Positions 250 through 16,961 of a DNA stretch of 33,439 nt are shown one piece after another. A model generated the notes under the pieces. It made no database searches and had not been told where the DNA came from. It saw only the letters and a list, made by a program, of their open reading frames with translations. A program made the position numbers and the translations under genes. Position 1 is the first letter of the stretch; each line of letters opens with the position of its first letter. Source of the DNA: Opitutales bacterium (GTDB lineage Bacteria; Verrucomicrobiota; Verrucomicrobiia; Opitutales; UBA2987); the NCBI GenBank assembly GCA_021772535.1, contig JAJFLV010000241.1, positions 1 to 33,439 of the forward strand, written 5' to 3'.

Positions 250-3200
250 ATGCATCCATCAACAGCTAACCCGATAAAGAGTGAGGAAAATTACCGAACA
301 CTCTATGAAAATGCTCCTATCTCGATCTGGGAAGAAGATTTCTCCGCCGTTAAAAACTATATTGATAATTTGCGCAAAAAAGGCGTCTCCGATTTCCGGG
401 CTTATTTTAACAAACATCCCGAAGAGGTCAGTCATTGCGCCGATCTGGTTAAGGTAATCGATGTCAATCAGGCCACCTTGAGGCTTTTTGGGGCGGAATC
501 CAAAGATGAGTTCTTCAAAGGCATAACGACCATCTTTGCGGATCAATCGATGGAGGCGTTCAAGGATGAAATAGTTGCCCTGGCAGAGGGAGAAACCCGT
601 TTTGAAGGTATAGGAACCAGCCGGTTGTTGAATGGAGAGCAAATTAATGACCAGTTTTTTGTGGCACTGGTGCAAGGCTGCGAGGAAACCTGGTCAAAAG
701 TAATTGTCGGCATCATAGACATCACCGGGCGAGTGCAAGCGGAGGAAAAACTCCAGAATAGCGAAAAGCGCTACCGTACCCTCTTCAAGAATTCTCCTAT
801 CTCAATTTATGAGGAGGATTTTTCCGGAGCAAAAAAATATATCGATGGGTTGCGCAAAGAAGGCGTATCCGATTTTAGGACCTATTTTAAAAAATATCCC
901 GAAGCGGTCAAACAGTGCGCCAGGCTGGTTGAAATCATCGACCTCAACGATGCAACCTTGAGGCTTTCCAAGGCTAAAACCATAGAGGAGTTCAAAAACG
1001 GGCTGCATTCTTTTATGACGGATCAATCCTGGGAAACCATCCGGGAAGAATTTATTGTATTGGCAGGGGGCAAAACTTCATTCGAAAGTGAGATGATTGT
1101 TCGGAACATGTACGGAGAGGAACTGATTACGGAAGTATTTCTTTCAATAGTTCCCGGTCATGAAGATACTTGGTCAAGAGTATTTATTTCGGATATTGAC
1201 ATCACCAAACGCAAACGAGCGGAAGCAAAACTTCGGGAGCGCGAAAAACATTACCGCACCCTTTTTATAAAATCTCCCATCTCGATTTGGGAAGAAGATT
1301 TTTCTGAAGTGAAAATACATATCGATAGCTTGCGAAAAAAAGGTGTATTCGACTTCAAGAAATATTTTGAGGAACATCCGGAGGAGGTTCCTCATTGCGC
1401 TTCCCTGATTAAAATCATCACCGTTAACGAGGCAACGTTGAGGCTATTCAAGGCAAATTCCATAGAGGAGTTCAAAAACGGGCTGCATTTAGTTCTAACG
1501 GACAAATCCTGGGAAACAATCAGGAATGAATTTATTGCTCTGGCCGAGGGGAATACTACGTTTAAAAGTGAGATTATCGTTCAAAATTTGAAGGGAGAGA
1601 CACTGAATACGGAATTATTTCTCTCCATAGTTCCCGGTTATGAGGATACCTGGTCAAAAGTATTCCTTTCCGATATAGACATCACGAAACGGAAACGGGC
1701 GGAGGAAAAACTTCAAGTTAATGAAGACCGCTACCGCACTCTTTTTGAGAATTCTCCGACATCGATCTGGGAGGAAGATTTGTCCGCCGTTAAACAGTTT
1801 ATCGACGGTTTACGCGAAGAAGGGGTCTCCGATTTCCAAACCTACTTTGACAAGCATCCGGAAGCAGTCGACCATTGCATCAAACTAATAAAAATTCTTG
1901 ATGTCAATCAGGCTACTCTGAAGCTCTACGGGGCAAAAAGCAAGGAGGCCCTCTACTCGGGCTTTAGATCTTTGTTCTCCCAACAATCCTGGCAGGTCTT
2001 AAAGGAAGAACTTATCGCCCTGTGCTCGGGAAAGACCAGCTTCGAGGGAGAGATGGTGGATCGAACCATGGACGGTAAGGAAATCCATAATGAGACATTT
2101 TTGACTCTTGTTCCCGGTCATGAAGATACGTGGTCAAGGGTTTTCCTATCCGATTTTGACATAACCGAACGGAAACGGGCTGAAAAGGAGCTTCGTGAAA
2201 GTGAAAGGCGTTATCGTACGATTTTCGAGCATTCTCCCATCCCGATTTGGGAGGAAAATTTCTCTGCCGTTAAACAGTATATCGATGACCTCCGCGAAAA
2301 TGGGGTGTCTGATTTCAGGACCTATTTTGATGATCACCACGAAGCCGTCAAACATTGCGCGGGTCTGGTTAAAATAATCGAGGTAAATCAGGCCACATTG
2401 AAGCTGTTCGGAGCCAAATTCAAAGAAGAGCTTTTCCAAGGCATAGATTCCTTGTTCACAGACAATTTCTGGACGTTGTTCAAGGAAGAATTAATCGCTC
2501 TGTGTTCAGGAGAGAATAGTTTTACTAGTGAAATGAAAGGTCGAAAATTAGATGGAAATGAGATAAATATAGAGCAATTTCTAGTTGTATCGCCGGGTTC
2601 TGAAGACACTTGGTCCAAGGTTTATATTTCCAATTTCGACATTACCGAAGGCAAACTGATGTTGGAAAAGCTTCGCAAAAGCCAGGAGCGTTTTCAAATG
2701 TTATTTGATGAATGTCCCATATCTTTATGGGTGGAAGATTACACAGAGCCTAAGAAACGCCTGGCAGATTTGCGCCAATCGGGCGTTTCCGACTTCAAAG
2801 CCTACTTCGAAAAACACCCTGAGTTTGTCACTGACTGCCTTAGCCACCTCAAAGTTGTGGACGTTAATCGGGCTACCCTCGATCTGAACGGTCATAATTC
2901 AAAAAAGGCACTCATGGCCAAATGGGGGAAATTTTTCGACCAAATCCCCATCGATCATTTCGAAGAACAATTGATTGCGCTGACTGAGGGAAAATCATCA
3001 TTTCAATCGGAAACTGAGTGGGTAAACCTGGACGGTGAAAAAAAGCATTCAATCATAAAATTGTCATTTTTTCCCGATCCCGAGAAATCGGAGGGTCACG
3101 TTCTTCTATCAAACGTGGACGTCACGGATTATAAGCGGGCTGAATCGGCCCTAGTAAATGCTGAACAGCGGCTGCGCGTCCTCTCTCGCCGCCTCCTCCA

Positions 3201-3834
3201 GGTGCAGGAGGAGGAGCGCCGCCACATCGCGCGGGAACTGCACGATGAAATCGGTCAGACATTGACCGCCATCAAAATAAATTTACAGGCATTGCAGCAA
3301 AATGACGAGCCGGAAACATTTCCGCAACAATTGGGCAATAGTATAAATTACCTGGATGACATGCTACATCGGGTACGTAATCTCTCCCTCGATTTGCACC
3401 CGCCAATGCTCGACGATCTGGGGCTTAAGGCCGCTTTGAGATGGTTGGTGGATCATGAATTCGGACAAAGCAATATCGATGTCAGTTTTTCTTCCGATAG
3501 TTTCGATTATCGGCCCGGCGGCCAAGTCGAAACAGGTTGTTTTCGAGTCGCCCAGGAGGCATTGACTAATGTGATCCGGCACGCTCGGGCGCGTTCTGTT
3601 GCGGTACAGTTGACGCCGGAATCCGGAGTTTTACATTTAATCGTTGGTGACGATGGGGTTGGTTTCGATGTCGAGGATAAGTTCCAACGTGCCGAAAAAG
3701 GTAAAAGTTTCGGTTTAACTGGGATGAAAGAACGAGTTGACATGCTTGGCGGCCGCATTGAATTCCGATCAACCCCTGGTAATGGAACCGAAGTACACGC
3801 TTGGTTTCCCAACGCATCGTCTCCCCTCGCATAA
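250..3834 (+). CDS. Cytosolic sensor histidine kinase with six tandem PAS domains (HisKA_3 / HATPase_c)
   Basis: 1194 residues, no signal peptide and no membrane segment, so it should sense an intracellular signal. Residues 15-974 are six PAS repeats of 160 residues each, starting at nt 292, 772, 1252, 1732, 2212 and 2692. Each has the pattern (F/Y)xxxPISIWEEDFS, then an IDxLRxxGVxDFxxYF insert, a central VNxATL, and ends in DIT plus a linker helix. The transmitter follows. A dimerisation helix carries the phospho-acceptor His998 in ELHDEIGQ, typical of HisKA_3 kinases. An ATPase domain has an N-box (QEALTNVIRHA) and a G-box (DDGVGFD). The cognate regulator starts 10 bases downstream. Repeats 2 and 3 are the most alike and share a 30-base exact match (980-1009 and 1460-1489), a sign of recent duplication or gene conversion. 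The signal is unknown. Confidence 0.93.
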   Translation: MHPSTANPIKSEENYRTLYENAPISIWEEDFSAVKNYIDNLRKKGVSDFRAYFNKHPEEVSHCADLVKVIDVNQATLRLFGAESKDEFFKGITTIFADQSMEAFKDEIVALAEGETRFEGIGTSRLLNGEQINDQFFVALVQGCEETWSKVIVGIIDITGRVQAEEKLQNSEKRYRTLFKNSPISIYEEDFSGAKKYIDGLRKEGVSDFRTYFKKYPEAVKQCARLVEIIDLNDATLRLSKAKTIEEFKNGLHSFMTDQSWETIREEFIVLAGGKTSFESEMIVRNMYGEELITEVFLSIVPGHEDTWSRVFISDIDITKRKRAEAKLREREKHYRTLFIKSPISIWEEDFSEVKIHIDSLRKKGVFDFKKYFEEHPEEVPHCASLIKIITVNEATLRLFKANSIEEFKNGLHLVLTDKSWETIRNEFIALAEGNTTFKSEIIVQNLKGETLNTELFLSIVPGYEDTWSKVFLSDIDITKRKRAEEKLQVNEDRYRTLFENSPTSIWEEDLSAVKQFIDGLREEGVSDFQTYFDKHPEAVDHCIKLIKILDVNQATLKLYGAKSKEALYSGFRSLFSQQSWQVLKEELIALCSGKTSFEGEMVDRTMDGKEIHNETFLTLVPGHEDTWSRVFLSDFDITERKRAEKELRESERRYRTIFEHSPIPIWEENFSAVKQYIDDLRENGVSDFRTYFDDHHEAVKHCAGLVKIIEVNQATLKLFGAKFKEELFQGIDSLFTDNFWTLFKEELIALCSGENSFTSEMKGRKLDGNEINIEQFLVVSPGSEDTWSKVYISNFDITEGKLMLEKLRKSQERFQMLFDECPISLWVEDYTEPKKRLADLRQSGVSDFKAYFEKHPEFVTDCLSHLKVVDVNRATLDLNGHNSKKALMAKWGKFFDQIPIDHFEEQLIALTEGKSSFQSETEWVNLDGEKKHSIIKLSFFPDPEKSEGHVLLSNVDVTDYKRAESALVNAEQRLRVLSRRLLQVQEEERRHIARELHDEIGQTLTAIKINLQALQQNDEPETFPQQLGNSINYLDDMLHRVRNLSLDLHPPMLDDLGLKAALRWLVDHEFGQSNIDVSFSSDSFDYRPGGQVETGCFRVAQEALTNVIRHARARSVAVQLTPESGVLHLIVGDDGVGFDVEDKFQRAEKGKSFGLTGMKERVDMLGGRIEFRSTPGNGTEVHAWFPNASSPLA
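292..3171 (+). repeat. Six in-frame 480-bp tandem repeats encoding PAS domains
   Basis: Unit starts are 292, 772, 1252, 1732, 2212 and 2692, and the transmitter begins at 3172, so every unit is exactly 480 bases with no net insertion or deletion. The first five units are clearly alike at the protein level. The sixth is the most diverged, with WVEDYTEPKKRL in place of WEEDFSAVKxYI. Confidence 0.95.
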
Positions 3835-3844
3835 ACCAAATACT

Positions 3845-4495
3845 ATGAAAAAAATCCGTATTCTCCTGGTGGATGACCACCGTCTGGTGCGTGCCGGAAT
3901 TCGCGCCCTTCTCGAGCAAATTCCAGATGTCCATGTGGTGGCAGAGGCCGGAAATGGCCGCCAGGCCCTCAATCTGATAAAGACACATGCCCCGGATATA
4001 TTGCTAATAGATATCGCCATGCCCGAACTGAACGGGCTGGATGCAACCGAGCGGGCATTGACCAGACATCCGGGAATTAAAGTAATAATCCTCTCCATGC
4101 ACGCTAACGAAGAGTATGTCTTGCAAGCTTTGAGAGTTGGGGCCTCGGGGTATTTACTCAAAGATTCCGCCACCCGTGAACTCGAATTAGCCATTCATTC
4201 GGTTTTTCGCGGCGATAGTTTTCTCAGTTCCAGTGTCTCCCGGCATATTATCAATCATTATCTGGACCGCACGATGGGGCACCCCGGACCCTGGAACCAA
4301 TTGACCTCCCGTCAAAGGGAGATCTTGCAGATGATTGCCGAGGGCAAAACAACCAAAGAAATCGCATTTTTTCTCAATATTAGCTCCAAAACAGTAGAAT
4401 CACACCGCAAGCAGTTGATGGATCGGCTTGATATTCACGATGTGCCGGGTCTGGTTCGATATGCAATGCAAAGGGGAATCATCCAGTCTTATTAA
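3845..4495 (+). CDS. NarL/FixJ-family response regulator
   Basis: 216 residues. The receiver domain (about 1-120) has the acidic pair D10-D11, the phospho-acceptor D56 in LLIDIAMPELNG, a serine in the ILSMHA switch segment and the conserved lysine in YLLKD. The C-terminal LuxR-type helix-turn-helix has LTSRQREILQMIAEG, then KEIAFFLNISSKTVESH. The ATG at 3845 was chosen because it begins directly with MKKIRILLVDDH; the longer frame from 3737 would overlap the kinase and add residues unrelated to the family. It starts 10 bases after the kinase stop codon, so the two are surely cotranscribed and form a cognate pair. Its target genes cannot be read from the sequence. Confidence 0.93.
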   Translation: MKKIRILLVDDHRLVRAGIRALLEQIPDVHVVAEAGNGRQALNLIKTHAPDILLIDIAMPELNGLDATERALTRHPGIKVIILSMHANEEYVLQALRVGASGYLLKDSATRELELAIHSVFRGDSFLSSSVSRHIINHYLDRTMGHPGPWNQLTSRQREILQMIAEGKTTKEIAFFLNISSKTVESHRKQLMDRLDIHDVPGLVRYAMQRGIIQSY

Positions 4496-4776: not shown

Positions 4777-5142
4777 GTGCCCAACTTGGATACCTATCCA
4801 ACATACTTATCAAATAATTATATTCCTGCACCTTCAGGTTGCCGCCAGCCGATGGGATTGCAGGAACGCTTCGATGGTAAGTTCTCCTCTCCAGATAAGA
4901 TGTTGGGTGCATACATTTTTTTGAATTATCCCGACAATATATCGTCCATTACCGTTGAGTTGTGGACCGCAGTTGAGATTGCGGTTGGCGCAACAAGGAT
5001 GGACGGTTTAACTAATCCGGCTCCAATTGCTGGAATGTTCTCCCCCGACGACGAGGAAAGTTTGACCCTATCCATCCCCCCCGATAGGATGGTCAAAATG
5101 AATGGCAGCCCCTTGGTCGGCATTTACGACGCTATCAATTAA
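4777..5142 (+). CDS. Hypothetical protein, possibly a gene remnant
   Basis: A 121-residue frame opening with GTG and lacking a Shine-Dalgarno sequence. I do not recognise a family. The peptide has no signal sequence or membrane segment. It has a plausible globular composition (FDGKFSSPDKMLGAYIFL, then SLTLSIPPDRMVKMNG near the end). The DNA just upstream is open in another frame for about 35 codons (FPYIEEFQIGVSLSKETL) before a stop at 4774-4776, so this may be the rear part of a frameshifted gene. It could also be chance. Confidence 0.3.
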   Translation: MPNLDTYPTYLSNNYIPAPSGCRQPMGLQERFDGKFSSPDKMLGAYIFLNYPDNISSITVELWTAVEIAVGATRMDGLTNPAPIAGMFSPDDEESLTLSIPPDRMVKMNGSPLVGIYDAIN

Positions 5143-9881: not shown

Positions 9882-11129
9882 TCAAGCCGATGTCTCGGCA
9901 CGGGTTAATGGCTCTCCTTTCGGCCCTGGTTCCTCCACCGGCATGAATAGCTTGAGGAAGACCCAAAGGATGACGAAGGGCAGGATCAGGAGAACGAGAG
10001 CAAACGACATGGTGAATCCTTCATGGCTGGCCATGGCCAGTTCCATTTTGTAAGTCGTAAAGCCGCGCAGGCTCTTGGAAAAAAGCTGGCCCCCGATGAC
10101 GACATTCCAGCGCATGGCGAGAACTCCTATTAGAATCAGCACACTGCTGAGAAAGTAGATCCATTCACGGGCTCGCGCGGCGATGTCTTTTTTGAAGATT
10201 TGAATCAATCCAAGAAGGACGAGAGGAACGGCGCTGCCGAGAAAAGCCTGTATGACGACGATACTGACAAATAGCTTTCCCGTCGCCAGGGTCTTGATGA
10301 TGTGGATGGATTCCTCGGCCTCATAAAGGCGGTGTATCCAATCCAGCGATTCGATGGCAGCGGCGATGATGAGGGTGTAAAAGAGAAACTTTGCCGTCAC
10401 ATCCAGGCAATCCATATCCATTTTCAGGCGCCGGGCCTGGCTGATTATCATAAATAGAAAGAGGCACAGGGCGATCCCTGAAACGATGGCCGAGAAAATA
10501 AAAATAATCGGCATGAGAACGTTGCCCCACCATGGATTTGCCTTCACTGAACCGAAGATGAATCCAACATATCCGTGCAGCAGGAAGGCAGAGGGGATGC
10601 CGATTATGGTAACGATATTGCAAAGACGAGCATCATATTTCAAAGATTCTTCCGAGATATCCGTTACTCCCAAAGTGAAGATAAGGTAAAGCCACCGCTT
10701 GGGTCCGGTGGTATACCTTGACCACAAAACGAAATCTTTGCGGTAATCGAACCACAATTCGAGCAGAAGAACCGCCATTAAATACCAGGCATAAACAAAG
10801 CCGAATATCGCCATGGGAGAAGAAAGGTGCGGTGTAATCATTACCTGCAGACTGCGTTCCGGATGCCCGAGATGAAAAAGTAGTGGCAATGGGGCCGCCA
10901 GGAGAAAGGCGAGCGATGTCAGTAGAGCCAGCCGATAGGTGGGTTCCAGCGCCTTGACTTTGAAAACGCGAACCAGGGAGGCGAGAATAAAGGCCCCCGC
11001 AACCAGTCCGGTAATGTAAGGGTAAAGAACAATCAGGTCGCCCCAGAGCAAATTCAGCTCATTGGGATAGATATAGCCCTCGACTTGCGGAAGAACATCT
11101 GTGGCCGGGATTTCGTAGGCGGACATCAT
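9882..11129 (-). CDS. NrfD/PsrC-family integral membrane quinone-interacting subunit
   Basis: 415 residues, about nine or ten transmembrane helices, no c-type heme motif. The NrfD pattern shows in the first helix (LYPYITGLVAGAFILASLVR) and in PLLFHLGHPERSLQVM and GAVPLVLLG-like helices; the closing helix is FVILWVFLKLFM. NrfD proteins exchange electrons and protons between the quinone pool and a periplasmic iron-sulfur subunit. The start is a double ATG (11129 and 11126) with a perfect AAGGAGG just upstream, inside the end of the iron-sulfur gene. It is the last gene of the module: tetraheme cytochrome, iron-sulfur protein, NrfD. No catalytic subunit is encoded alongside. Confidence 0.92.
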   Translation of the reverse strand: MMSAYEIPATDVLPQVEGYIYPNELNLLWGDLIVLYPYITGLVAGAFILASLVRVFKVKALEPTYRLALLTSLAFLLAAPLPLLFHLGHPERSLQVMITPHLSSPMAIFGFVYAWYLMAVLLLELWFDYRKDFVLWSRYTTGPKRWLYLIFTLGVTDISEESLKYDARLCNIVTIIGIPSAFLLHGYVGFIFGSVKANPWWGNVLMPIIFIFSAIVSGIALCLFLFMIISQARRLKMDMDCLDVTAKFLFYTLIIAAAIESLDWIHRLYEAEESIHIIKTLATGKLFVSIVVIQAFLGSAVPLVLLGLIQIFKKDIAARAREWIYFLSSVLILIGVLAMRWNVVIGGQLFSKSLRGFTTYKMELAMASHEGFTMSFALVLLILPFVILWVFLKLFMPVEEPGPKGEPLTRAETSA

Positions 11130-11130
11130 C

Positions 11131-11943
11131 TTATCTTACCTCCTTATCCATACCCGCGTAGAGGACTCGCGGAGAGGTGCCCAGGTGTGGTTTGAGGGTT
11201 TGCACCTTGTTCTTTTCGATAAACTGCATCAACGGATCGTCGTCCACCGGGTTTTTCAGATCGCCGAAAATCCGTGCCTCGGTGGGACAAACTTCGACAC
11301 AGGCTGGTAGCAAACTACGCGTAATGCGGTGGTAGCAAAGGGTGCATTTTTCGGCTGTTCCGGTCTCCGGGTGCATAAAGCGGCAGCCGTAGGGGCAAGC
11401 CTGGATGCAGAATCCGCAACCTATGCAATAGTTGGGATCGACCAGAACTACTCCGTCGGGAGCATCGAAGGTAGCGCCTACCGGACAGGCCTGAACGCAC
11501 GGTGAATCCACGCAGAGGTTGCAAAGTTTGGGCACATAAAACGATTTCAGGATCTCCTCTCGTGGAACAGAAGTGGGAGGGAATCCGTTGATGCCACCGG
11601 ACGGTGAATCAACCTGAGTTTCTCCTCGGGCCCTGGAAGAACCGGGTTTCCGTCTCTTGATGACGTAGCGTTCGATCCAGGTCCGGAAATAGGTGGGACC
11701 CGGCGGCACTTTGTTCTCCAATTCGCAGGCCTGGACGCACATCCCGCAACCGATGCATTGCTCGATGTCAAAAGCCATGAGCCACTTGTGTTTGGTCGGG
11801 TCATAACCCTTGGGGGCGGGTGTTTTGACCATAAACTTCCTCACCGCGCCTTTGGCCTTGCGAGCAGTGGCAAGGCTGACAAATCCAGCCAGCGCTTTGC
11901 CGGTGAGGGAAATCAGTTTTCGCCTGGTAATTGAACTTTTCAC
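11131..11943 (-). CDS. Tat-exported ferredoxin-type electron-transfer subunit with four [4Fe-4S] clusters
   Basis: 270 residues from a GTG at 11943. That start gives a twin-arginine signal (ITRRKLISLTGKALAGF), so the protein should be folded in the cytoplasm and exported. Four four-cysteine groups bind [4Fe-4S] clusters: C63/66/69/73 (CIGCGMCVQAC), C141/144/149/153, C173/176/179/183 (CIGCGFCIQAC) and C200/203/215/219. This is the layout of DmsB, NrfC, HmcB and DsrO-type subunits that partner NrfD proteins. The GTG lies one base after the TAA of the cytochrome gene, and the next gene starts the same way, so translation is probably coupled. Longer starts upstream would overlap the cytochrome gene and mask the Tat signal. 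Confidence 0.92.
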   Translation of the reverse strand: MKSSITRRKLISLTGKALAGFVSLATARKAKGAVRKFMVKTPAPKGYDPTKHKWLMAFDIEQCIGCGMCVQACELENKVPPGPTYFRTWIERYVIKRRKPGSSRARGETQVDSPSGGINGFPPTSVPREEILKSFYVPKLCNLCVDSPCVQACPVGATFDAPDGVVLVDPNYCIGCGFCIQACPYGCRFMHPETGTAEKCTLCYHRITRSLLPACVEVCPTEARIFGDLKNPVDDDPLMQFIEKNKVQTLKPHLGTSPRVLYAGMDKEVR

Positions 11944-11944
11944 C

Positions 11945-12397
11945 TTATTCGTTCGGTTGGTGGGGGGTATGACAATCCGTACAGCTATCACTCTCGTAGT
12001 GATCATCGAGGGAAATCTGGGCAAGCCAGGAAGGTCTGCTCGGATCGGACCGATGGCAGCGCAGACAGCTCCCGTCCTCGATTTTTACTAAAGGTGTTTC
12101 AGGATCGATAACATGACTCATGGCCGGGCCGTGACAGGTCTCGCAGGAAAGGGTTTTATGTTCGAATTGGGAAACCAGTTGCAATGCCTCTTCGTGGCAA
12201 TTTCGGCAGGATTCCTTGCCGGCGAATGACAAAGGGCGAGTCGCATGCTCATTCAATGAAGCCCCTCGGTAAAACCCGAATTGGCCGAAAGTTTCCGGGG
12301 TCATGAAATACCTGGCCGTAAAATAAAGGGCAATGATGGCCAGGGTGACCAATACCAACCTGACGAGTTGGGGTGGAATCCCGTTTTTCCGTGCCAT
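11945..12397 (-). CDS. Membrane-anchored tetraheme cytochrome c
   Basis: 150 residues. One hydrophobic helix at about 11-28 (LVRLVLVTLAIIALYFTA) anchors a periplasmic domain. Four CxxCH motifs start at C64, C85, C111 and C139. The ATG at 12397 follows GAGG about 11 bases upstream; an upstream TTG at 12406 is less likely. It is the first gene of a three-gene unit with the iron-sulfur and NrfD proteins and probably passes electrons between that pair and another cytochrome. A similar arrangement (multiheme c, ferredoxin, NrfD) is known in the Hmc, Qrc and Cbc complexes, but this protein is smaller than the cytochromes of those. Confidence 0.88.
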   Translation of the reverse strand: MARKNGIPPQLVRLVLVTLAIIALYFTARYFMTPETFGQFGFYRGASLNEHATRPLSFAGKESCRNCHEEALQLVSQFEHKTLSCETCHGPAMSHVIDPETPLVKIEDGSCLRCHRSDPSRPSWLAQISLDDHYESDSCTDCHTPHQPNE

Positions 12398-12459
12398 GAT
12401 TTCCAAATCCTCTTTTCTGCCAATTCTGGTTGTTGATTAACTTTACAACACAATAGCCA

Positions 12460-12488
12460 ATTTTAAGTTTGACTCAACTTTTTATCAA
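12460..12488 (-). promoter_or_regulatory. Candidate sigma-70 promoter of the tetraheme/FeS/NrfD module
   Basis: On the minus strand TTGATA (12483-12488) and TAAAAT (12460-12465) are 17 bases apart, each one mismatch from consensus. It sits in the only AT-rich gap of the cluster (12398-12557) and would give a leader of about 55 bases. A 7-bp inverted repeat (TGTATTA/TAATACA) lies just upstream of it. Confidence 0.5.
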
Positions 12489-12557
12489 ATTTGTTAATAA
12501 TACGTTAGAGGTGTATTAGTTTTATTAATACAAAACCGAGTTTCGTGCAATGCGGAA

Positions 12558-14714
12558 TTATTGTGTAAAATGTAACGCCAAGGCGTAGATAATGAGAAAC
12601 AAAAGGATCAGCCCGAGGCCGAAGAACAGGTATCCGAAAGTGCGGGCGATGGATCTCCAGTTTTCCCATTCGTCCTTTACCCGGAAGTCGTCGAGCCTGC
12701 CTTCCGCCACCAGGCGGTCGTACCAGCGTTTGCGCTCGTGCAGCATTTCAATCTTGGGGATGCGGCCGGAGAAGATGACCGTGTCCATGGGAAACTTCTC
12801 AATGCGGAAGTGGGTGTTGAAAAAATGGAAAGTGAAGATGAAACCGGCGGCCAGGAGGGCTTCGTCGGAGTGCACGATGAGGGCCACGTTGATGGCCCAT
12901 CCGGGCAGAAACTCGGAAAAAAATTGGGGAAACCATAAAATGAGACCGGATACTCCGATGATGGCAACACCCCAGAAAACGGCGAAGTAGTCGAACTTTT
13001 CCCAATAGGTCCAGCGATCGAACTGCGGTTGCGGGCCGCGCCCCGTAAACCATTTAACATGAGCGACCAGATCTCGCCAGTCAGCCATGCTGGGAACCAT
13101 GGAATCGGGTCCAAAAATTCCGTTCCAAGCCTTCTTCCAGGGAATCTTGCGGTTCCCATTTTCATCCTTGGCCCGATAGTTTTGAACAAACCATCGCCAG
13201 ATTTTTTTAGCCAAACTGCCCAGGTGCAAAGCGAAATAGAGAAACGTCACAATCGCGCCAAAGTGGTGCAGGGAGCGGGCCACCTCGACTCCTCCAATCA
13301 TGTTGAGGAGGACTTTGGCCCAGTCGGCATAGTAGAATTTGAGAGGCATTCCGGTGAAAACGAGGAGGAGAAAACTGGTCACCACCATGAGGTGGAGAAA
13401 TCGCTCGAATGGGGTAAAGCGGGTAAACCACTCTTTTTCCTGTTTGCCCAACAGGCGGGCTTTGCGAAAACTTTTTGAGTCGCTTATAAAAAGTCTCGCC
13501 GCCCGGTAAAACCAGGCGGAGGTGTGCACTCCGAAAACCAGAAATACCCCACCCAGGAGCGAAGTCATGAATATAAAAGCGAAGAAAAGTGTAGGATAAT
13601 TTTCAGCATCGAGGGGATCGGCGTGTGGGATGTATCCAGTAAACCCCCCATTGGCTCCCGGGTGGCAATTGCTGCACGTTTCCACAATATTGTCCGCCGA
13701 TAGCTTGGAGAGCGGATCGGTCGAGGGGAGCACATCGTGGGCTCCGTGGCAGTCGTAACATGCGGCCACCTCAACGGCTTGGTTCGGACGGCCCAGAGCC
13801 AAAGCTTTACCGTGATAGGTGTCTTTGTAACGAACCAAGCGGTCCTGGTGGCATTGACCGCAGCGCATGTCGCTGAGCGCTTTATACTCGATGGCGTCGG
13901 TCGTCTGGATTCCGTGAGCGGTGTGACAATCGGTGCAGACGGGCCTGTCATGGCCGCCGTTGGTCATCAAATCCCCATGGATGCTCTGATTGAATGTTTC
14001 TTCCACTCCGACATGGCATTTCCCGCAAGTTTCGGCAATTTGAGCCCGGTTGATAGGGGAATCGGGGTGGACGGTGCGGTTAATATCATGCACCCCGTGG
14101 CAGTCATTGCAGGAGGGCGCCACCACAAGACCCATCTGCAAGAGCCCTCGTCCGTGTATGCTTTCCAGATAAAGCGATTCCACATGCGGAAATTTCATGT
14201 CGAATTCTTCAGTAATATCCGGATTTTCATGGCAGCGGGCGCAGGTGAAAGGAAGGTTCAGCTTGAACACAGGTGAACTTAGATCGTTGACCGGCTGGAT
14301 GTAGTGGGAGCCATGGCAGTCCCCACAGGAGGCTGCCGAAGTTGCGCCGGTGCCGCGGCTGGCTCCGTGGATGCTCGTGGCGTAGTCTTTTTGGATATCG
14401 TCATGGCATTCGGCACAGTTGACGGGAGCCAATTTCGGGGCGTGCCCCATTTTTTCGATGTCGAGGTGGCAATCGACGCAATCGAAGATCCCATGCACCG
14501 AGTCATCGAACCGGTCGCTTTCCAGTTTCAGTTTGGAAACCTTCAATCCGGCCTCAATTTCAGAGGGCGGAGGATCGCCATGGCATTGCAGGCACCCATC
14601 GGAGGGCAGAGAGGCAATCGCCCCACTGAGGGCACAGAACAGAAATACCAAGACTAAGACCAGTCGGTATCTTAAACCAACCGGTCGGTGAAAGAGTTCT
14701 CGGTAGGAACTCAT
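12558..14714 (-). CDS. Undecaheme cytochrome c fused to a cytochrome b membrane domain (CbcL-like)
   Basis: 718 residues. A signal peptide (about 1-35) precedes a periplasmic domain with eleven CxxCH motifs, at C41, 79, 100, 130, 158, 202, 230, 260, 285, 319 and 347. Between them recur SIHG-type histidines (72-75, 114-117, 185-188, 244-247), likely distal heme ligands. The C-terminal third has five hydrophobic segments with histidines placed as in FdnI/HydC-type diheme cytochrome b (ERFLHLMVV, RSLHHFGAIV, ALHLG, TFHFFNTHFR). The fusion of a multiheme c domain to such a b domain is the architecture of CbcL, a quinol oxidase of Geobacter. It probably takes electrons from menaquinol and passes them to the periplasm. 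ATG at 14714; AAAGGA lies somewhat far upstream. Confidence 0.9.
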   Translation of the reverse strand: MSSYRELFHRPVGLRYRLVLVLVFLFCALSGAIASLPSDGCLQCHGDPPPSEIEAGLKVSKLKLESDRFDDSVHGIFDCVDCHLDIEKMGHAPKLAPVNCAECHDDIQKDYATSIHGASRGTGATSAASCGDCHGSHYIQPVNDLSSPVFKLNLPFTCARCHENPDITEEFDMKFPHVESLYLESIHGRGLLQMGLVVAPSCNDCHGVHDINRTVHPDSPINRAQIAETCGKCHVGVEETFNQSIHGDLMTNGGHDRPVCTDCHTAHGIQTTDAIEYKALSDMRCGQCHQDRLVRYKDTYHGKALALGRPNQAVEVAACYDCHGAHDVLPSTDPLSKLSADNIVETCSNCHPGANGGFTGYIPHADPLDAENYPTLFFAFIFMTSLLGGVFLVFGVHTSAWFYRAARLFISDSKSFRKARLLGKQEKEWFTRFTPFERFLHLMVVTSFLLLVFTGMPLKFYYADWAKVLLNMIGGVEVARSLHHFGAIVTFLYFALHLGSLAKKIWRWFVQNYRAKDENGNRKIPWKKAWNGIFGPDSMVPSMADWRDLVAHVKWFTGRGPQPQFDRWTYWEKFDYFAVFWGVAIIGVSGLILWFPQFFSEFLPGWAINVALIVHSDEALLAAGFIFTFHFFNTHFRIEKFPMDTVIFSGRIPKIEMLHERKRWYDRLVAEGRLDDFRVKDEWENWRSIARTFGYLFFGLGLILLFLIIYALALHFTQ

Positions 14715-14817
14715 GGTTTTTGTTTATCCTTTCCCTATTTTGGCCGCTGGAATTTGCGGCACAAGACACCTTCTATCCGGAAGGAGTCTGCGTTTTTCCC
14801 CATAAAAATTTCAGTTT

Positions 14818-16353
14818 TCATTGCAAGGCGCCCGTGTGGCAATCGCTGCACGTCAGCCCCAGAAAATCGCCGTCGGGATGATCGAACTCCAAACCCTTGG
14901 GCGCCAGCAGGTTCAGTTGTTCCCCGCTTCCCTGGGCGATAATGGTGTGACAGGCGTTGCAGTCGTCCGCCTTAATATTGAGCAAGCCATCTACGGAAGA
15001 ATGCAATCCGTCGTGGCAGCGAAAGCAGCCCAGCCAATTTTTGTGACCGATGTTGTCCGGGTAAACTTGCCAGTTCGCCTTCATCTCCGGAAAGAAATTA
15101 TTGAGATAAATTTGCTGCACCGCATCAATGGTGGATTTAACGCGCAGATCGTTCCTATAAACGAGGTTGAGAGCTGTGGCGATTTGCTGAAGAGCCTCAT
15201 TCTCGGTGGAATAGTCCCCGGTCAACACTTCCACCGCTTTTCTTTTAATGCCGGGGATAGTACTATCCAGGGCTCCAATACTGAGGGCCAGATCGACGGC
15301 GTCATTGGGCGATTTGAAAATATGGGCCGGCCGGTTATGGCAATCCATGCAATCCATTACGCTTATGGAGGACTTATCCGGTTCCCCTTGAAACTCTTCG
15401 TTACGATAAACGGTGACCACTCCCTGGGGATCGGTCATGCGCACCCAGGGGATGTTCTGCTTTTGCTTGTCGGCGGCATAGTATTCCACCTTGTTGGCTA
15501 CGTTCATGTGCCAATGGATGCCACCAATGGGTCCTTGGGTGGCATCGCCGCCTCCCACTTTGAGGGAAAGCCGGATGGAATAAGGCGTATTTTCCTTGTC
15601 GGTCAGGAAGTGGTTGTAGGTGCGGTCGAGATTACCTACATACATAGGCGGCCAGTGGCATTGTTCGCAGGTTTCCTGGGCGGGCCGCAGGTTGGAAATC
15701 GGTGTCGTGATGGGCCTTGGATACTTGTCGAAGGCCGTGGCATAGACCTGGTAGGCCCCGCTAATTTTAGATTTAACGTACCAGTTGGCGCCCGAACCGA
15801 TGTGGCACTCAGAGCAGGAGACACGGGCGTGGGGGGAATGCATGTAGGTGACGAATTCCGGCTTCATGACCTCATGACAGGCTTGTCCGCAAAAGACCAC
15901 CGACTCGGTAAAATGGTAGGTCTGGTAACTGCCGATGGCGGTCAGGAGCATAAAGATGGAGGCGCCGACGGCAAAAAGAACGAGATCCTTTTTATAGCGC
16001 CGGCGGGTTAATTGCACTTCCTTTGGAAGCAGCTCTCCACGCGCCGTGGCGCGGGCGATTTTGCTGCGCCGTAGCAACGCGCCAATACTAATCAGGACTA
16101 TCCCGATCACGAGAAAAACGGGCGCCACGAGATAGGCCAGAATCCCCATGTAGGGATTATTGTGGCCCGTCAAAATATCGATTCCGAAAAGAAGTATAAA
16201 AGCAAAAAGGCTTCCAAACGCCACGATGACACCGCTCAGGCTGATCCAGTTGCGGAAAATGGAAGCCCGTTTGTAGGCCGGCTGCTCCTCGGGTTTTACT
16301 TCCTCTGGTTTTGCTTCCTCTGGATTTGCTTCCTCTGGATTTGCCTCAGTCAT
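14818..16353 (-). CDS. NapC/NirT-type seven-heme inner-membrane cytochrome c (ImcH-like)
   Basis: 511 residues. After a charged N-terminus with a repeated five-residue motif come three membrane helices (about 35-60, 69-93 and 123-142). The periplasmic part has seven heme-binding motifs: an unusual CX3CH at C155 (CGQACH), then CxxCH at C180, C229, C335, C443, C465 and C502. The CX3CH followed by HSPHARVSCSECHIG matches the NapC/NirT quinol-dehydrogenase start. Three helices plus seven hemes is, from memory, the plan of ImcH, the inner-membrane quinol oxidase used by Geobacter with high-potential acceptors. It lies 103 bases upstream of the CbcL-like gene and 119 bases after the monoheme cytochrome gene. 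A long plus-strand frame opposite it is a shadow. Confidence 0.9.
   Translation of the reverse strand: MTEANPEEANPEEAKPEEVKPEEQPAYKRASIFRNWISLSGVIVAFGSLFAFILLFGIDILTGHNNPYMGILAYLVAPVFLVIGIVLISIGALLRRSKIARATARGELLPKEVQLTRRRYKKDLVLFAVGASIFMLLTAIGSYQTYHFTESVVFCGQACHEVMKPEFVTYMHSPHARVSCSECHIGSGANWYVKSKISGAYQVYATAFDKYPRPITTPISNLRPAQETCEQCHWPPMYVGNLDRTYNHFLTDKENTPYSIRLSLKVGGGDATQGPIGGIHWHMNVANKVEYYAADKQKQNIPWVRMTDPQGVVTVYRNEEFQGEPDKSSISVMDCMDCHNRPAHIFKSPNDAVDLALSIGALDSTIPGIKRKAVEVLTGDYSTENEALQQIATALNLVYRNDLRVKSTIDAVQQIYLNNFFPEMKANWQVYPDNIGHKNWLGCFRCHDGLHSSVDGLLNIKADDCNACHTIIAQGSGEQLNLLAPKGLEFDHPDGDFLGLTCSDCHTGALQ
16286..16345 (-). repeat. Four 15-bp tandem repeats at the start of the NapC-type gene
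   Basis: Four consecutive 15-base units (16286-16300, 16301-16315, 16316-16330, 16331-16345) encode a cytosolic run of NPEEA, NPEEA, KPEEV, KPEEQ type at the N-terminus of the seven-heme cytochrome. The two units nearest the start codon are almost identical, so the number of copies may vary between strains without changing the frame. Confidence 0.9.
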
Positions 16354-16472
16354 ATTTTTTCGATCTGTGAAGGACCGCTGAACGGTTCATCCTTTTGCTT
16401 TTAAAAATACCCGCCATAACCCGCAGAAATCTGCCAGTTGGACATGGTTCTTGATTACTGGAAAAGGACGTC

Positions 16473-16808
16473 TTATTTCCCCATCGCTCGGATATAGGCT
16501 ACCAATGCCTCAATATCTTCATCGGAGAGTTTGTCGGCGAATGGCTTCATTTTAACCTTCTCGCCCTCTTTTACTCCCTCCTTGGTGGCATCGAATAATT
16601 CCTTGTCGGTAATCGACTCCTGAAACTCGGCGGTGGTATAATCTTTAAGCTTCAGCTTAATGCCAGCCTTGGTTTTCGCCTTGCCGTCCGCCCCGTGGCA
16701 TTTGGCGCATTGTGATTTCCAGTTTTCTTCGGCACTCTCGGCCATCAACTGCCAGGGCAGAAGTAGAAGACTGACAAATAGAGCGATTAATTTAACCAGT
16801 TGGTGCAT
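16473..16808 (-). CDS. Small class I cytochrome c (monoheme, periplasmic)
   Basis: 111 residues. A signal peptide (VKLIALFVSLLLLPWQLMA, cleavage near residue 23) precedes a single CAKCHGADG motif at C34. Met87 in KVKMKPFADKLS is the likely sixth ligand, and the C-terminal helix DEDIEALVAYIRAMG is typical of class I cytochromes c. The ATG at 16808 has AAGGAA at a good distance. An in-frame ATG at 16949 with its own ribosome-binding site would add 47 residues before the signal peptide. It is the first gene of the upstream module and probably shuttles electrons in the periplasm from the membrane cytochromes. Confidence 0.88.
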   Translation of the reverse strand: MHQLVKLIALFVSLLLLPWQLMAESAEENWKSQCAKCHGADGKAKTKAGIKLKLKDYTTAEFQESITDKELFDATKEGVKEGEKVKMKPFADKLSDEDIEALVAYIRAMGK

Positions 16809-16825
16809 TCTTATGTTCCTTTCTC

Positions 16826-16938
16826 TCCAATTATAGTGGGAGTAATTTACGAGCAATCCCTCTTTGGAGGACCAGAACCGTGGGTTCCACCAGCAGAAAG
16901 ACCGGCTTTCCACGTTCTCAATCCATTTCCAATTATAG
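16826..16938 (-). repeat. 11-bp direct repeat in the cytochrome operon leader
   Basis: The minus-strand sequence CTATAATTGGA occurs at 16928-16938 and again at 16826-16836, spaced 102 bases (34 codons). Each copy contains TATAAT. In the upstream in-frame extension both encode Tyr-Asn-Trp. Confidence 0.8.
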
Positions 16939-16961
16939 ATCGCAGACATTTATTTCCTCAA
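16932..16961 (-). promoter_or_regulatory. Second candidate promoter (P2) of the cytochrome operon
   Basis: On the minus strand TTGAGG (16956-16961) and a perfect TATAAT (16932-16937) are 18 bases apart. Its -35 box is one half of the 12-bp palindrome. A transcript from here would start near 16925 and exclude the upstream ATG at 16949. Confidence 0.4.

Follow-up and report, generated by a model that had tools for sequence, protein, structure and literature searches.

A histidine kinase with six serial PAS units

The window, a 33,439 nt stretch of DNA from an Opitutales bacterium, carries on its forward strand a histidine kinase gene with six tandem PAS units and, beginning 10 bp past the kinase stop codon, a response regulator gene of the NarL/LuxR type. 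The relatives used for comparison were Opitutales (Verrucomicrobiota) MAGs, the nearest of those taken being OFTM292 (locus L039) and OFTM35 (locus L038); units are labelled W for the window, B for L039 and C for L038. The main features are as follows.

250-3834 (+): histidine kinase, 1194 aa, six PAS units with HisKA_3 and HATPase_c (ORF, profile matches)
292-771 (+): PAS unit 1, 160 aa; ortholog of L038 C1, 81% identical
772-1251 (+): PAS unit 2; groups with unit 3 and L038 C2
980-1009 and 1460-1489 (+): 30-base exact match between units 2 and 3 (self-comparison)
1252-1731 (+): PAS unit 3; 67% identity to unit 2
1732-2211 (+): PAS unit 4; pairs with L039 B4 (DNA tree, 96/93)
1783-1887 (+): three-helix insert of unit 4 (residues 18-52), between Aβ and Bβ (AF2 models, alignment)
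2164-2229 (+): unbroken 22-residue helix from Jα of unit 4 into A'α of unit 5, model residues 145-166 (AF2 pair model)
2212-2691 (+): PAS unit 5
2692-3171 (+): PAS unit 6, kinase-proximal and divergent; ortholog of L039 B6 (72%)
2692 to ~3350 (+): probable mosaic segment, unit 6 and DHp start (protein 815-1030), nearer L039 (site comparison)
3214-3405 (+): HisKA_3 dimerisation/phosphoacceptor domain (PF07730 profile match)
3241-3243 (+): phosphoacceptor His998 within ARELHDE(IGQ) (sequence)
3529-3813 (+): HATPase_c catalytic domain (PF02518 profile match)
3845-4495 (+): response regulator, receiver and LuxR-type (GerE) HTH (Response_reg and GerE matches)
4777-5142 (+): small ORF 3' of the regulator, no Pfam match (ORF)

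Domains were called with Pfam and NCBIfam models, and the PAS/S-box (TIGR00229, 131.9 bits on the whole kinase protein against a cut-off of 22.9), HisKA_3 (PF07730, 54.9 bits, cut-off 24) and HATPase_c (PF02518, 54.8 bits, cut-off 26.4) matches all exceeded their cut-offs. The pair has HisKA_3, HATPase_c and an adjoining LuxR-type regulator in common with DesK/NarX-type kinases and their NarL/FixJ-type regulators, and its sequence places it in that class on all three counts. It differs from the DesK/NarX type in lacking a transmembrane sensor, the cytosolic PAS array being the input; the 19-residue Kyte-Doolittle mean peaks at only 1.09, and the kinase is therefore probably cytosolic.

The original prediction was of six units and a transmitter start at an exact spacing of 480 bases, with no net indel despite a diverged sixth unit and with a 30-base exact match between repeats 2 and 3, and all of this was borne out. 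The units start at 292, 772, 1252, 1732, 2212 and 2692, followed by the transmitter anchor LRVL at 3172, and all six 160-aa units align gap-free (MAFFT L-INS-i). Ungapped comparison of the protein with itself gave 52.6% matches at a lag of 160 and at most 13% at any lag outside the multiples of 160, with no compensating gaps needed; for the DNA, the values were 62% at a lag of 480 and ~33% or less off-period. Pairwise amino-acid identity is 51-67% within units 1-5, falling to 35-41% where unit 6 is compared. A single profile made from the six units scores each of them at 245 bits or more, and an independent family profile gives them 183-238 bits. The units thus represent a single PAS subtype, as had been proposed, and not different PAS families, although with a typical identity of ~55% the description of the array as near-homogeneous was generous.

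Fold of the PAS subtype and the inter-unit helix

An AF2 model of unit 4, built from 103 family rows (pLDDT 95.9), has a PAS fold with three additional helices, and this three-helix insert was found in all six units by AF2 models and alignment. The closest solved folds are the LOV and NifL FAD-PAS domains (Z 12-13.6), which share the PAS core with the unit over 110-126 residues at 2.3-2.8 Å; the unit differs from them in its insert between Aβ and Bβ, in an identity of 14-22% and in having no NCRFLQ. The TIGR00229 match, the AF2 fold and the similarity to PAS/LOV structures in the PDB (Z up to 13.6) together place the units among PAS (S-box) domains. In the one unit searched, Pfam matches begin at residue 54, past the insert, and no Pfam model covering the helical insert was seen; a search of PDB sequences with the family profile gave no match.

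Residues P9, E15 and N59 are invariant across the family and C49 is present in 91/103 members (88%). The subtype was found in Verrucomicrobiota, Chloroflexota, Desulfobacterota, Zixibacteria and several archaeal groups and, in the loci sampled, is mostly single-copy per protein. The insert and the conserved Cys49 also occur together in L046, L049, L067 and other loci. The LOV flavin-adduct motif NCRFLQ does not occur in the translation of any of the six units, and units 1-5 have no heme His of the FixL/DosP type in Fα; unit 6 does have an Fα His (IDHF), which is Leu in B6, and this unit does not qualify as a heme PAS.

We modelled units 4-5 with the start of unit 6 as a monomer (33 rows; pLDDT 93.4, pTM 0.66). 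In this model a continuous helix joins unit 4 to unit 5 and a like helix follows unit 5. An equivalent helix may be inferred at every junction. At a pTM of 0.66, the orientation of one module to the next is only moderately defined.

Among units 1-5 conservation is uneven, the better kept segments being A'α/Aβ (74%), the insert (64%) and the Iβ region (66%), and the least kept Fα (45%), Gβ (43%) and Hβ (40%). The Fα, Gβ and Hβ segments usually line PAS pockets. Because the units differ most in these segments, identical sensors, as originally proposed, are unlikely; the pattern is consistent with modules built on a common frame that may differ in what they sense.

Origin of the 480-bp period

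A census was made on samples of phyla comprising 1184 genomes in all, with at most ~10 candidates scored per genome. Only the best-scoring loci were compared, and longer arrays elsewhere could be missed. Among the 179 distinct proteins (215 units) from these loci, the longest run of the subtype is one unit in 162, two in 12, three in 3 and six in 2, these last being the window kinase and its L039 relative alone. This is in line with the view that a periodic array of one PAS type is unusual. Homogeneous arrays of other PAS types were sought in 350 ORFs near the subtype, and none of these ORFs had more than ~3 similar PAS copies. Tandem, regularly spaced PAS domains have already been noted (PMC6798134). 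The mean for PAS proteins is two PAS domains, and one kinase has as many as 19 (PMC10468136), so that six is not extreme in number and the run of one type is the uncommon part.

Counted from the unit start, the D-I-T anchor lies at a distance of exactly 142 residues in 153 of 209 family units. At 54 scorable junctions, anchored by profile column, the linker helix between D-I-T and the following unit has 18 aa in 48, 11 aa in five and 23 aa in one, while the core preceding it varies from 137 to 154 aa. Spacings of 155-171 elsewhere have an altered core and an unchanged linker, and the spacing of 153 reflects a linker short by exactly seven residues, or one heptad. Further pairs with negative linker values, in which the next PAS is generic and without the insert, were left out of the 54; their commonest value, -16, equals 18 minus ~34 and again points to an 18-aa linker. 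The 11-aa linkers occur in five similar Chloroflexi PAS-PAS-GGDEF proteins (L111, L172, L189, L190 and L200) and may reflect a single ancestral event.

Since the 142-aa core and 18-aa linker are also modal in single-copy units across phyla, the 480-bp period is inherited: 480 bp is 3 x (142 + 18), as the subtype is normally built, with no array-specific rule. The proposed length constraint special to the array was therefore not upheld, and on the evidence of the 209 units and 54 scorable junctions array-specific length selection was discarded as the main cause. The related suggestion that helical phase matters fared better. What is held constant is linker phase, not unit length, and the linkers follow the rule for PAS kinases that lengths differ by multiples of seven, with 18 or 18 - 7 = 11 aa in 53 of the 54. 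This agrees with published coiled-coil linker rules, a heptad length dependence being described for PAS-kinase linkers in passages of PMC6798134 that cite Moglich et al. 2009 and 2010.

In another lineage, units 2 and 3 of L110 (5998 onward) are 89% identical, with a 166-aa period, a longer core and the same 18-aa linker, and appear to be a recent tandem duplication.

Evolution of the units

Copy number differs between the relatives: L039 has six units, each of 160 aa, and L038 has three, of 161 aa (unit 1) and 160 aa. Protein and DNA trees were made from the 15 units of W, B and C. Support is 100/100 for a branch of W6, B6 and C3, 100/99 or better for the W1/C1 pair and 97/91 or better for a group of W2, W3 and C2; the DNA tree also joins W4 to B4. 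A clade made up only of W1-5 is rejected (p = 8e-81). As units pair by position across species (W1/C1, W4/B4 and W6/B6), most duplications predate the split. The original proposal of stepwise in-frame duplication thus stands as regards the in-frame build from one PAS type and is not supported as a recent expansion. Units were apparently lost or gained after the species split, leaving copy numbers of 6, 6 and 3 in W, B and C.

Only units 2 and 3 look locally duplicated. In the protein tree W3 falls with C2 (97/94), a W2/W3 pair not being rejected (p = 0.064), and the DNA tree weakly favours W2/W3 (75/55). Of the within-array pairs for which dS was computed, theirs has the lowest value (0.84), and their 30-base match (codon-shuffle p = 0.014, uncorrected for 15 unit pairs) is weak evidence of local duplication. 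Other unit pairs have no unusually long matches, with a borderline run between units 2 and 4 (p = 0.03). A late duplication would suffice for these observations, local conversion being possible.

The 3' end of the array appears to be a mosaic. The window is closer to C than to B in the transmitter (79% against 65%), in the regulator (87% against 73%), which adjoins the kinase in both relatives, and in unit 1 (81% against 54%). For unit 6 the relation is reversed (72% to B and 55% to C3), and the sites that tell these two relations apart change over near residues 1028-1037, within the DHp region. This suggests that unit 6 and the DHp start have a history different from that of the rest of the gene, probably through recombination in one lineage; an alternative is fast change in C3. 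As the history of unit 6 conflicts with that of the rest of the gene, a 'conserved anchor' is not the whole story.

Proposed mechanism and alternative explanations

We consider it probable (roughly 0.75) that the locus encodes a cytosolic DesK/NarX-type kinase with a LuxR-type regulator, in which one PAS subtype has been duplicated in frame to give six serial sensors. Each module would comprise a PAS core with the three-helix insert and a closing Jα helix that passes without a break into the next module, the last Jα continuing into the DHp helix, and duplication or loss of whole modules would preserve both frame and linker phase. A change in any module may then pass along a parallel dimer via the stacked linker helices, with the six inputs summed or gated at kinase-proximal unit 6, apparently the unit most conserved in position, to set phosphorylation of the regulator. 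The number of distal modules would be open to evolutionary change (3 or 6 modules in the species compared), and these modules, whose likely pockets have diverged, probably respond to signals that differ in kind or in tuning. More speculatively, and with low odds, the array may be a copy-number-tunable sensor in which diverged copies of one under-described PAS subtype act serially in a single helical register; if so, gain or loss of whole modules would alter gain or cooperativity without breaking the kinase.

Other explanations of the uniform array were weighed against serial sensing. A length-constrained stalk, with equal units selected for one helical phase and indels purged in the array specifically, would account for the finding that all 12 units of both six-unit arrays have exactly 160 aa at ~50% identity, and 160 is common but not universal in tandem pairs elsewhere. 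These 12 units are, however, related and are not independent draws, 160 aa is also the commonest module length where the subtype is single-copy, unit 1 of the near relative L038 has 161 aa, and spacing elsewhere shifts via the core with the linker unchanged; we regard this explanation as unlikely. That the distal units are mostly degenerate spacers from neutral duplication, with only unit 6 (perhaps unit 1) sensing, is quite unlikely: copy number does range from 3 to 6 with the kinase/regulator pair retained, but all units are free of stops and frameshifts, the unit comparisons with an estimable dS give a dN well below it, and P9, E15, N59 and C49 are kept in all six units.

Concerted evolution, in which gene conversion holds the units alike and equally long, seems very improbable. 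It draws on the 30-base match of units 2 and 3 and on their dS, lower than that between species for W1/C1 (1.28), both of which a simple late duplication explains equally. Against it, units group across species and other pairs mostly lack unusually long matches. Conversion across the whole array was rejected together with the W1-5 clade, and the gene-conversion tests originally proposed leave it as a possibility for units 2 and 3.

The serial-sensor kinase of the window can be set beside known systems. It shares with the cyanobacterial multi-PAS kinases, which have up to 19 PAS domains (PMC10468136), many serial PAS domains before a histidine kinase and the duplication of sensor modules; it may differ from multi-PAS kinases in general in having five of its six units in one subtype clade with no length change. 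With the engineered PAS-PAS-kinases YF1 and YHF, as described in passages of PMC6798134, it has in common PAS domains joined by continuous coiled-coil helices with heptad-class linkers, the helix here coming from a monomer model; it differs from these in being natural, with six modules and without a LOV or heme signature. The observation of a regular array is true and its cause mostly ordinary, that of a multi-PAS kinase with an unusually uniform array. The regularity leads to a simple rule, observed for this PAS subtype in archaea as well as in several bacterial phyla, by which module length is a conserved core plus a linker of one heptad class. The effect of the number of serial PAS inputs has so far rested mainly on engineered two-sensor kinases, and the trio of kinases with 6, 6 and 3 modules provides a natural test set for relating this number to kinase response.

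Other observations in the window

The small ORF downstream of the regulator (4777-5142) includes a 38-aa stretch that is 50% identical in L038, where it also lies downstream of the regulator. On the reverse strand, positions 9882-16949 hold a cluster of NrfD-like, 4Fe-4S and multiheme or c-type cytochrome genes that looks like a respiratory complex. Within it, the NapC/multiheme cytochrome ORF at 14818-16353 (-) contains a 15-base tandem repeat (16286-16344, -) encoding an N-terminal ANPEE-like pentapeptide repeat.
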